From: Candidatus Gastranaerophilales bacterium
Lineage (GTDB): Bacteria > Cyanobacteriota > Vampirovibrionia > Gastranaerophilales > Gastranaerophilaceae
NCBI GenBank assembly: GCA_944325655.1
Contig: CALVAW010000017.1
Coordinates: 1 to 40,276 of the forward strand
DNA: 40,276 nt
Reading direction: 5' to 3'
The position numbers and the translations under genes are program-made. Under the pieces are notes generated by a model that was not told the origin of the DNA, did no database searches, and saw only the letters and a list, made by a program, of their open reading frames with translations. Positions 18,868 to 24,598 of the stretch are shown one piece after another. Each line of letters starts with the position of its first letter. The stretch's first letter is position 1.

Positions 18868-19638
18868 ATGGCAAGAAGACCAATTATTGCTGGCAATTGG
18901 AAAATGAATAACAATAAAGCTCAAGCAAAAGAATTGACCGATGGTATTATGTATGGAGTTAGTCAATTGGACGCTGCAAAGATGCCGGAAGTTATTTTAG
19001 CGCCGACTTATACTGCTTTATGGCAAGTATATGATTTGATTAAAAATGAACCAAAACTTTCTCTTGCTGCTCAAAATGTTAACCCTAATCCTTCAGGTGC
19101 ATACACGGGCGAAATTTCTCTTGATATGTTAGAAGATTTTAAAGTTAAGTATGTAATTATAGGTCATTCGGAACGTCGTCAAATGTTTGGTGAAACCGAT
19201 GAATTTATTAACGAAAAAGCACTTGCTATTCTTGAAAAGGGCTTAATACCTATTATTTGTTGCGGAGAAACTTTAGAACAAAGAGAGCAAGGTGTTACGG
19301 ATGCTCATTTGAAAAAACAAATTACACTTGCTTTTAAAGGTATCTCAGCTCAAGATGCAAAGAAATCTGTTATAGCCTATGAACCCATTTGGGCAATAGG
19401 TACAGGAAAGTCTTGTGACGCTATTGAAGCAAACAGAACAATAGGAGAAATCAGAAAAGTAATTAAAGATTTATATGATAGCAGTGTATCTGATGAAATA
19501 AGGATTTTATACGGCGGGTCTGTTAAACCTTCAACAATTGTTGAACAAATGGCTCAACCTGAAATTGATGGCGGTTTGATAGGCGGAGCTTCTTTAAAAG
19601 CAGATAGTTTTCTGGATTTAATCAAGGGAGCTATGTAA
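18868..19638 (+). CDS. tpiA: Triosephosphate isomerase
   Basis: Interconverts dihydroxyacetone phosphate and glyceraldehyde 3-phosphate in glycolysis; cytosolic homodimer. The 256-residue barrel has the N-terminal GNWKMN (catalytic Lys), the electrophilic His in IIGHSERRQMFGE, the catalytic Glu in AYEPIWAIGTGK with loop 6 immediately after, and the phosphate-binding ILYGGSVKPS and GGLIGGASLK. Strong AAGGAG ribosome site, extended -10 promoter and its own terminator, so it can be expressed separately from fliA. Confidence 0.98.
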   Translation: MARRPIIAGNWKMNNNKAQAKELTDGIMYGVSQLDAAKMPEVILAPTYTALWQVYDLIKNEPKLSLAAQNVNPNPSGAYTGEISLDMLEDFKVKYVIIGHSERRQMFGETDEFINEKALAILEKGLIPIICCGETLEQREQGVTDAHLKKQITLAFKGISAQDAKKSVIAYEPIWAIGTGKSCDAIEANRTIGEIRKVIKDLYDSSVSDEIRILYGGSVKPSTIVEQMAQPEIDGGLIGGASLKADSFLDLIKGAM

Positions 19639-19645
19639 ATAGGTA

Positions 19646-19678
19646 TTTAAAAAAGGAGGTCATGCCTCCTTTTTTAAA
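19646..19678. terminator. Bidirectional terminator
   Basis: Stem AAAAAAGGAGG / CCTCCTTTTTT with loop TCATG, extendable by three A-T pairs. It ends tpiA on the plus strand. On the minus strand it serves the convergent 587-residue gene, whose TAA stop (19674-19676) lies within the arm. Confidence 0.92.
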
Positions 19679-21437
19679 TCTTTTGATTTTTTGTTTCTTC
19701 TTGTAATTTTTTAATATTTTGTTCTTTTTTCTCTTTATATAATTTGATTTTTTGTTTTATTTTACCTGCAGGTTTAACCATTAGTACAGGGACAAGAAAA
19801 CGTACAACTAGTGTGAATATTGTCAGGGATTTGAATTTGCTTAGTTTTTTACCGTATGAACCGGCAAGTTTTTTTGCTATTTCTTTTACTTGTTGAGAAT
19901 TATTTATATCCGCTCCATTTTTGAGGAATGTTTTTGCGATATTTTCCGCATCATTAAGTTTTTTACAGCTTTCTTTTATCGCTTTTTGAAGGTTGCTTAT
20001 TTCTTTTCCTTGTGAGATTTCATTTGCAAGATTTTTAATATTATTTTCTATTGTTTGTGCGTAATTCTTTTTGCCCTTTTCAATCAAACCATCTAAAAGA
20101 AGGTCGATTAAAAATGCTGAAGCTGAGGATACAATTGTTACGAGTATTGATTGTACATTTAAACCGAGTTTTTGGTCGGGAGCTATTTTTTTAGAACGTG
20201 AAGTATTTTGCACCCACCATGCCGTTAATAATACAGACTCTAAATCCGACATTCTGGCGCTTGGTTTAGGAAGTTTTGTTAATCCTCTTACAAATTTATC
20301 GCCTGCATTTGAAACTGATGCGTGTTCAATTATTTTTGATAATGTTTCTATTGCGTTATTGCTTATAGAACCTTTGAATGCTATCGGTGTTTTTTTGTTT
20401 AGATAACTGTCAAATTCTTTTTTCGTGTCTTTAAATCCGGATGAAGCTGTAAGTGGAGTTATAATTTGGTTTTCGTTTTGATTTTGTTGAGCTTCAAAGC
20501 TTTTCTTTGCAAAAATAAATGCGACAACGGTTGGCAGTAAAAGACTTGCAATTTTTGCTTTTGCTATTGCAACAGGTGCCCCTGCAAAGTTTTTCCATAA
20601 TGAATCATACGCTTCATTTAAAGCTGTTCCGCTTTTTTTATCGGTTACTTTGTCGAGTATATCTTTTAATAACTTTGGATTTTTTTCAAAAATTTTCTTA
20701 TGCTCTTTACATGTTTCAACAAGTTCCGCTGCTTTTTGTTCTATTGCTTCTTTTGTTGGTATAAATTCTATTTTTTTAAAAAGTGTTTTGAAGAAGGCTG
20801 CTATTTTTCTTATTCCCGTATTTTCTTTTACGGCATTTTTGATAATTTCTTTCTTTTCTTTAAATGTATTGCCTTCTTTTTTAAGTATTTCTTCTGCAAG
20901 TTCCAGAACTTCTTTGCTTTCCTTGCCTTTTACGTTAATTTTAAGATTGTTTGATACTTCAAGAAGAGATATATTATTTTTTGTTATATCAACTGCTTTT
21001 TTAATTATTTTTCCGCTTATTGTGAAGCTTAGAAAACTTCCTAAAAAGGCTTGCAGGAAGTTTTTTGTTGCTATCATTTGCTTATCTTTTTCATCTGCAT
21101 CTTTTGTTTTTAATACCAGAAGCGGTTTCAAAAGTCCGGCTATAAGCATTGAATATACCGCAGTGTAGGCAGCTTCGTTATCTGCTACAAAGTTTATGAT
21201 TCTGTTTAAAAATTTATTTTCAAGAAATATTTTTCCTGCTTTGCTTATTTTATTATCCGCACCTATGCTTTGTGCTGCAGAAATTACAGACCCGCTGAAG
21301 CTTATTGCCTTTGCGGGTCCGGTTGTATTATATTTTTTTATATCAATTCTATGCTCGTCAAATTCATATTGTCTGGAGTTCAGACCTTTGTTTGTTGCTT
21401 GCTTATTGGTAAGCGAATTTTTGAAATAAACTTTCAT
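19674..21437 (-). CDS. Membrane protein with internal tandem duplication
   Basis: Unrecognised 587-residue protein. After a polar N-terminus, two copies of one arrangement follow. Copy 1 (about 47-310) starts FSGS, continues ISKAGKIF, a hydrophobic pair at 91-108 and 123-140, a long charged coiled region, then a single hydrophobic segment at 296-310. Copy 2 (about 354-560) starts FKGS, continues VSNAGDKF, a pair at 400-410 and 428-450, a charged coiled region, then a segment at 538-554. No signal peptide. The lysine-rich coils suggest cytosolic helical bundles between membrane anchors. It may be related to the 271-residue protein at 5066. The upstream bases (TATATA six bases before ATG, no ribosome site) again look leaderless, less convincingly than elsewhere. 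Confidence 0.78.
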   Translation of the reverse strand: MKVYFKNSLTNKQATNKGLNSRQYEFDEHRIDIKKYNTTGPAKAISFSGSVISAAQSIGADNKISKAGKIFLENKFLNRIINFVADNEAAYTAVYSMLIAGLLKPLLVLKTKDADEKDKQMIATKNFLQAFLGSFLSFTISGKIIKKAVDITKNNISLLEVSNNLKINVKGKESKEVLELAEEILKKEGNTFKEKKEIIKNAVKENTGIRKIAAFFKTLFKKIEFIPTKEAIEQKAAELVETCKEHKKIFEKNPKLLKDILDKVTDKKSGTALNEAYDSLWKNFAGAPVAIAKAKIASLLLPTVVAFIFAKKSFEAQQNQNENQIITPLTASSGFKDTKKEFDSYLNKKTPIAFKGSISNNAIETLSKIIEHASVSNAGDKFVRGLTKLPKPSARMSDLESVLLTAWWVQNTSRSKKIAPDQKLGLNVQSILVTIVSSASAFLIDLLLDGLIEKGKKNYAQTIENNIKNLANEISQGKEISNLQKAIKESCKKLNDAENIAKTFLKNGADINNSQQVKEIAKKLAGSYGKKLSKFKSLTIFTLVVRFLVPVLMVKPAGKIKQKIKLYKEKKEQNIKKLQEETKNQKI

Positions 21438-21501: not shown

Positions 21502-22479
21502 TTATACACTTAAAACGCTTTCATATCTTGTTTTTACATATTGTTCAATTTTGTCTAATATTATTTTTTCAAATTGAATATTAAAAATATCATTTATTTC
21601 ATTAATAAAAAAGCATGGACTTGTAATATTTATTTCTATTATTTTTCCGTCTATTACATCCAAACCTGCCATGTATATGCCGTCTTGTTCGAATTTATTT
21701 TTTACAATACCTTCAATTTGTTTCTCTTTTTGAGTTAAATGAGCTAATCTTAGAGTATTTTCATTATGCTCATTAAATTTAAAATCATTATTGGTAGCAA
21801 TTTTGCTTACACAGTATTCAAAAATTTCTCCGCATATATATATTAATCTTTTGTCTCCGTCTTTAATTTCAGGGAGATATTCCTGAATCATAACGGTGGT
21901 TTGGTAATTATTTGTTGCTGTTTTTATAATAGCGTTAATGTTTTTATCATTTTCATTTAAATAAAATACTCCCGATCCGAAACATCTGTTTAGGGGTTTG
22001 ATTATGATTTCGTGTTTTTTGAAGAGAAATTCTTTTATTATTTTTTCATCGGATGCAACAATATTTTCCGGAATAATACCTTGAAATTCATTGATGTACA
22101 GTTTTTCGTTTTTTTCTCTTATTGCTTTGGGGCTGTTCATGATTATTGTATTTTTGTTTTTAACATTTGAGAGAATGTAGCTTGCGTTTATATAATCCAC
22201 ATCAACAGGCGGGTCGGGTCTGAAAAAGATAATATCAAAATTATTTAAGTTCTTTTCTTCTGCAAGTGATTGTTTTTTGATATTATTATTTTCTGCAAAA
22301 GTCTTATAGCACAAACAAAAAGGGGTATCGTTTTTTTGAAAAAGTTTGTTTTTGGTACAGATAAAAACACTGTAATTACGGTTTAAAAATTCCCAAATGA
22401 GCCAAAAATTTGTAACTAATTTATTAAATTCAAAATATTTAAATTCTATATCATCTATAACAATTAGTATATTTTTCAT
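21502..22479 (-). CDS. gshB: Glutathione synthetase-like ATP-grasp protein
   Basis: ATP-grasp ligase resembling bacterial GshB, which joins glycine to gamma-glutamylcysteine. The start is placed at MKNILIVIDD rather than at an upstream in-frame ATG, because the family begins there, the extra 78 residues look like non-coding antisense, and a TATAAT box lies six bases upstream. That gives 325 residues, near the GshB norm of 310-320. Visible motifs: FFRPDPPVDVDYINASYIL (RxDPPxDxxY), NSPKAIREKNEKLY, EIIIKPLNRCFGSGVF, IQEYLPEIKDGDKRLIYI, and AGLDVIDGKIIEINITSP with the Mg-binding E-x-N. No gshA is present in the window, so the true substrate could differ. Confidence 0.85.
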   Translation of the reverse strand: MKNILIVIDDIEFKYFEFNKLVTNFWLIWEFLNRNYSVFICTKNKLFQKNDTPFCLCYKTFAENNNIKKQSLAEEKNLNNFDIIFFRPDPPVDVDYINASYILSNVKNKNTIIMNSPKAIREKNEKLYINEFQGIIPENIVASDEKIIKEFLFKKHEIIIKPLNRCFGSGVFYLNENDKNINAIIKTATNNYQTTVMIQEYLPEIKDGDKRLIYICGEIFEYCVSKIATNNDFKFNEHNENTLRLAHLTQKEKQIEGIVKNKFEQDGIYMAGLDVIDGKIIEINITSPCFFINEINDIFNIQFEKIILDKIEQYVKTRYESVLSV

Positions 22480-24190: not shown

Positions 24191-24598
24191 TTGTTTAGAT
24201 ATGTTTTGATTTTTAATATTTTAATGACTTGCTGCTATGCGGCTTCCGAATTGTATTCGGAAAATGAGGAAATTAAAAGTGCATTAAATCAAAATATGTA
24301 CGAACCTAATTATTTGAGTTTATTTTTGGGGTTATTTTTAGTAATAGGTCTAATATATTTTACGGGTTTTATATATCAAAAATTGACAAAAGTTAAGATT
24401 AACAATTATGATGAAATTTTAAACAAAGCAGAAATTATATCAACAACTCCTTTGGGGCAAGGAAAGAATTTGCATGTAATCAAGGTGAATGATGAATTTA
24501 TGTTAATTGCCTCTGTGCAAAATAATGTTGTATTTTTAAAAGAATTAAATTGTGTCGGCGATAGGGAAGAAATAGGGAAAGATTATGAAAACGGTTAA
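24191..24598 (+). CDS. fliO: FliO-like flagellar biosynthesis protein
   Basis: A 135-residue protein with a short hydrophobic N-terminus (MFRYVLIFNILMTCCYA, signal-like), an acidic extracytoplasmic stretch, one membrane segment (about 42-64) and a cytosolic beta domain IISTTPLGQGKNLHVIKV...LIASVQNNVVFLKEL, which matches the PLGxGKxLxVV...LLGV...LLxEL pattern of FliO, the assembly factor for the FliPQR export gate. The TTG start is chosen because GGAGGG stands four bases before it. The usual partners fliP, fliQ and fliR are not adjacent. The end overlaps the next gene by 14 bases. Together with fliA it suggests a motile or formerly motile organism. Confidence 0.75.
   Translation: MFRYVLIFNILMTCCYAASELYSENEEIKSALNQNMYEPNYLSLFLGLFLVIGLIYFTGFIYQKLTKVKINNYDEILNKAEIISTTPLGQGKNLHVIKVNDEFMLIASVQNNVVFLKELNCVGDREEIGKDYENG

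Follow-up and report, generated by a model that had tools for sequence, protein, structure and literature searches.

What kind of protein is encoded by the long open reading frame (ORF) on the minus strand at positions 19674–21437 of the window, and how did it come to consist of two halves with the same layout? The window is the whole stretch of 40,276 nucleotides that we analysed; it is contig C17 of a genome of 1.69 Mb, to which the Candidatus Gastranaerophilales MAGs L031 and L032 are the closest relatives with a name. The ORF, which an earlier note had delimited from the sequence alone, was recovered with the same coordinates; it encodes 587 residues, and its description as a membrane protein agrees with the hydropathy windows reported below. 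Taken as a whole, the explanation that we consider reasonably probable is that this ORF is a fusion of two genes, A and B, whose products would form an obligate membrane unit; more tentatively, this unit may have an accessory role in the handling of a cofactor or small molecule.

Layout and distribution of the protein

Half A (residues about 40–330, positions 20448–21320, on the minus strand like every other part of the ORF) is equivalent to a separate A gene, and half B (residues about 345–587, positions 19677–20405) to a separate B gene. Each half comprises an FxG element, two hydrophobic segments 14–15 residues apart, a Lys-rich coil and a single hydrophobic segment. In half A, these elements correspond to FSGS (residues 47–50, 21288–21299), segment A1 with an internal conserved [KR]P (residues 91–109, 21111–21167), segment A2 (residues 127–145, 21003–21059), the Lys-rich charged coil (residues 146–290, 20568–21002), which is longer than in the compact paralogs described below (about 43 columns), and segment A3 (residues 291–309, 20511–20567). 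In half B, they correspond to FKGS (residues 354–357, 20367–20378), a weak segment B1 (residues about 398–415, 20193–20246), segment B2 (residues 430–448, 20094–20150), the charged coil (residues 449–533, 19839–20093) and segment B3 (residues 537–555, 19773–19829). Hydropathy revealed five clear windows in this protein, namely A1, A2, A3, B2 and B3; the sixth and weaker one, B1, located before residue 430, was positioned from the family averages. In these averages every loop carries a net positive charge, and the positive-inside contrast is not clear.

The repeated order of elements that had been proposed for the two halves stands in part. The general layout is present in both, and the FxG element is kept in the genus alignment in 23 of the 23 rows with letters at this site of half A (the remaining 3 of the 26 rows start later, the input having been trimmed to the match) and in all 26 rows of half B. 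The second proposed motif, (I/V)S-x-AG-x-x-F, was found in 1 of the 26 rows of half A, with 21 rows gapped at the site, while half B keeps 'S..G' alone; its occurrence in half A is due to chance. The idea that FxG could be a sorting signal was dropped. A scan of 21 stretches of the same genome (440 kb and 366 genes, window included) found 5 hits at N-termini, a density of 0.195 per 1000 residues vs 0.220 elsewhere, and the loose form F.[GA] is common by chance, being present in the first 90 residues of 25 of 63 background genes (context genes of at least 150 aa, minus the ORFs already in the analysis). Two unrelated proteins of this genome carry an FxG-type segment near the N-terminus (INFNGK in L136:10351–11346, and ISFKGN in L138:9595–10149).

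No match above threshold was obtained for the window protein in Pfam, NCBIfam, PHROG or PDB, so the absence of a described family with this layout, noted previously, holds for these libraries; the sub-threshold matches were YtvI (18.1 bits, cut-off 198) and DUF7842 (14.9 bits, cut-off 27). A protein search of 116 related genomes detected relatives in 68 of them, and the profile of the compact paralog found the family in 181 of the 192 genomes of the order. Positive genomes amounted to 143 of 240 in a class-wide sample and 85 of 194 in a phylum-wide one, the matches listed all belonging to the same order. The initial protein search had a single hit beyond the order (G104, E 4.6e-4), for which the compact profile gave no confirmation. 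The A/B family is an orphan, confined to one order of gut Melainabacteria. The window protein matches the A-profile (5e-113) and the B-profile (3e-98), in that order along the chain, values that arise by construction given that it is a seed member; the independent compact profile matched its A part with 3e-10 and its B part with 1e-10. No catalytic-looking conserved residues were noticed, and for this reason a structural or regulatory role seems likelier than an enzymatic one.

Separate, compact and long versions of A and B

Three architectures were observed: long single chains of 415–696 aa, which occur in the window and in a further 26 genomes of the same genus; compact chains of about 330 aa, likewise single, which form one clade (SH-aLRT 99); and A and B as two separate genes. 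Among the single chains of the same family, two are unusually long (about 695 aa, L145:1579–3669 and L146:938–3019), and the one in L145 gave no Pfam match. Where the genes are separate, A comes first and B follows it on that strand in 26 of 26 pairs, with a spacing of −14 to +2 nt, and 17 of these pairs overlap by exactly 1 nt. The A-profiles match A and the B-profiles match B in all architectures, and the profile comparison gave 99.9% for split A vs compact A and 99.7% for split B vs compact B. From this specificity it follows that A and B were distinct before the architectures diverged.

Split and fused versions also occur at the same chromosomal place. In the context nadB-nadC-[A,B]-HEAT-queC, A and B are two genes in L148, L155, L156, L157 and L158 but a single chain in L150. 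At the place between aroF and gshB, L029/L147 and L033 have the split version, and L030 the fused one. The clade of the window protein itself has split members (L029, L033 and L034), and in families f3, f4 and f5 all the sampled pairs are split. A tree of 70 of the 117 pairs contains 10 changes between the split and the one-ORF state, at least four of which are forced by supported branches; the tree is unrooted and does not orient the direction of these changes. The earlier note had attributed the chain to a tandem duplication within the protein, and this was not its origin, given that A and B are separate adjacent genes in many relatives. The chain is therefore best read as a fusion of adjacent genes A and B, a reading that is favored by the split state of the sampled f3, f4 and f5 pairs.

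A fixed order, a spacing close to zero and recurrent fusion are typical of the subunits of one complex. A and B would accordingly constitute a single obligate unit in the membrane with 1:1 stoichiometry, a heterodimer of six segments that in the window would be made as one chain. Paired small membrane proteins encoded by adjacent genes or by one fused chain are known from DUF606 and from SMR pairs such as EbrAB. The A/B genes are likewise adjacent, touching and in fixed order in 26 of 26 pairs, and likewise have independent fused versions according to the unoriented changes in the tree; with three segments per half, the fused halves would be placed in opposite orientation. In contrast to this likeness, A/B matches neither of the two sequence models, nor any Pfam family.

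Relationship between the two halves

The fusion of A and B is compatible with a duplication in their older history, in which a three-segment membrane gene would have been duplicated in tandem, the copies would have diverged, and they would have been fused later in the lineage of the window. We judge this history somewhat probable. The similar layout and spacing of both halves (FxG, about 38 residues, segment, 14–15 residues, segment, coil, segment), together with the alignment register in overlapping data sets, suggest that A and B may derive from one duplicated gene. When profiles from deep alignments (about 97 A domains and 99 B domains) were compared with the FxG element included, a score of 45.5 (89.9%) was obtained over 163 collinear columns, and plain shuffles of the same set reached a maximum of 17.9 in 100 trials. 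After removal of FxG with clean cuts, the whole set scored 31.8 over 84 columns, a value reached in 0/60 plain shuffles, and the split-only sets scored 27.7 and 25.1 with a register similar to that of the whole set. In addition, three A genes were weakly matched by B profiles (E 2e-4, 3e-5 and 1e-4).

Other results weigh against a common ancestor. Of the remaining FxG-free subsets (21.3, 17.9 and 15.7), the non-genus-fused-only set (17.9) and the compact-only set (15.7) gave no A–B signal, and in some sets the reversed profiles were close to or above the real score (24.7 vs 27.7, and 23.5 vs 21.3). Moreover, shuffles that keep the hydropathy class of each column reached the real score in 6/100, 2/100, 11/100, 61/100, 9/60 and 1/60 trials, that is, in 2–61% of them depending on the set. 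This indicates that the A–B signal is largely shared hydropathy, and the score of 45.5 must be discounted for this reason. The same hydropathy-preserving controls support a second history, to which we assign a considerable though lesser than even chance, in which A and B began as two small membrane proteins without common ancestry but alike in hydropathy, came to depend on each other and were then fused. BLASTP found no match between the halves (best E 2.3), and the second motif is not common to them, as this history would have it; the matching spacing, the FxG at both starts and the consistency of the alignment register speak against it. The self-comparison of the halves proposed as a check on the duplication thus had a mixed outcome: the deep profiles are collinear, but BLASTP was negative, the genus-level half profiles scored 17.7, not above the shuffle maximum of 22.5 (40 shuffles), and the hydropathy-preserving shuffles reach the score. 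An AF2 model of the window protein, computed with L031 and L032 (3 rows), had a mean pLDDT of 38.7 and a pTM of 0.30, values too low for the model to be of use here.

Regarding the direction of change, a one-chain ancestor that was repeatedly split is unlikely: the unrooted tree is neutral on this point and the 1-nt overlaps could come from a frameshift-type split, but besides the sampled pairs of f3, f4 and f5, split pairs occupy three of the four places in f7 that do not belong to the compact clade, and separate B genes often have their own FxG-type start (F.[GA] in the first 50 residues of 19 of 28 split B genes vs 17 of 63 background genes). Fusion of A and B remains the reading that we prefer for the window chain.

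Gene neighborhoods and possible role

The clearest functional lead concerns the compact paralog and PnuC, a transporter for a form of vitamin B3 (nicotinamide riboside). Across 192 genomes, both genes are present in 134, the compact gene alone in 2, pnuC alone in 2 and neither in 54 (Fisher p 1e-42, a value that ignores phylogeny). The compact gene adjoins pnuC in 120 of these 134 genomes, in divergent orientation in 116 and in tandem in 4; the remaining 14 keep both genes, 12 of them on separate contigs and 2 at distant positions of a single contig. This co-occurrence spans families f1, f6 and f7. In f1, eight genera mix genomes with both genes and genomes with neither, and in all eight the two genes are lost or retained jointly except in G008 and G231; the other two exceptions are G056, the single sampled genome of its genus, and G085, of family f6. 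Linked loss by single deletions could have inflated the association. The PnuC identity (PF04973, NMN_transporter) was confirmed for two neighbors of the compact gene. Although PnuC is likewise a membrane protein, the window protein and 17 compact members have no PF04973 match, in contrast to the partner itself. The start codons of the divergent genes are about 17 nt apart in L151:8777–10493 and L152:9036–10755, about 48 nt in L157 and about 25 nt in L159; a gap of about 17 nt leaves too little room for two separate promoters of the ordinary kind.

In the common view, PnuC needs no companion other than a cytosolic kinase, and a PnuC partner, if true, would be unexpected. In the one literature library searched, Gastranaerophilales combined with PnuC yielded no paper. 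The compact paralog would serve PnuC in the uptake of nicotinamide riboside or NMN, for example by assembling, stabilizing or gating it. The window genome has neither the compact paralog nor PnuC; hence, this link can be carried over to the window protein by extrapolation alone, and any partner of the protein would be a different one. On the basis of these associations, we only tentatively propose that the A/B unit may be an accessory membrane component in cofactor or small-molecule handling.

In the window, a glutathione-synthase-like ATP-grasp gene, gshB (21502–22479, minus strand), is located upstream of the A–B ORF on the same strand with a gap of 64 nt, and both genes are probably co-transcribed. 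In the clade of the window protein, the pair lies downstream of gshB, on the same strand and at 25–72 nt, in 32 of the 32 loci with both genes, which correspond to 31 distinct places since L147 repeats L029; 33 loci were examined, and in the 33rd (L034, from G065) gshB is on another contig. The gshB gene is present in 94 of 116 genomes and is widespread elsewhere in the family without the pair alongside. GshB (PF02955, TIGR01380/NF003573) is a soluble ATP-grasp enzyme, related to the window protein by position and not by sequence. On the other side of the ORF, tpiA (18868–19638, plus strand) is convergent with it, and between them a GGAGG/CCTCC hairpin with flanking A and T runs was seen by eye (19649–19675), which looks like a bidirectional terminator.

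The long pair adjoins nadC in 37 of the 56 genomes for which both places are listed, with 5 further genomes without a listed nadC place, and these neighborhoods are confined to seven genera (g7, g11, g14, g15, g22, g35 and g38). Given that nadC is near-universal (188 of 192 genomes), its co-occurrence with the pair is uninformative, and the clade-bound adjacency may be inherited synteny. An Rfam search of the window and five neighborhood loci found tRNAs alone and no NAD riboswitch. Two adjacent 137-aa paralogs, each starting with 'NFNQP(S/A)FQAKF', were observed in L158:15710–16578.

The clade-bound character of both the nadC and the gshB neighborhoods would also fit an ordinary lineage-specific membrane protein surrounded by inherited neighbors and with no link to NAD or PnuC. 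We find this doubtful, since the compact gene and PnuC co-occur in three families, in divergent (116) as well as tandem (4) order, and both are kept in the 14 genomes where they are unlinked. The fused A–B unit, with an accessory role that we propose only tentatively, is still the account that we favor. A more ambitious version of it seems unlikely, in which the A/B units would make up a novel class of membrane partners, restricted to this order, for the handling of pyridine-nucleotide precursors, the compact form being the obligate partner of PnuC, the long nadB-nadC pair serving the de novo route, A and B being inverted-topology duplicates, and the window chain having been re-assigned to gshB in a genome that lacks both PnuC and the compact partner.

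Among the new leads, the association of the compact paralog with PnuC is the most useful one for the function of the family, and its co-occurrence pattern in gut Melainabacteria makes the question of a PnuC partner directly testable. With these results, an anonymous lineage-specific membrane protein becomes a family that has a functional lead and a testable structure, that of two subunits in contact with each other. In addition, nature provides in this family a range of split and fused forms of what would be a single membrane complex.

Elsewhere in the window, positions 24191–24598 encode a short FliO-like protein (Pfam PF04347, E 1e-6; TIGR03500, 40.8 bits, below the cut-off of 55.25). Its gene adjoins those of a Tic20-like small membrane protein (a weak, sub-cut-off match) and a NeuB-family protein, and the order TPR, small membrane protein, FliO-like is also found in the relatives L031 and L032.
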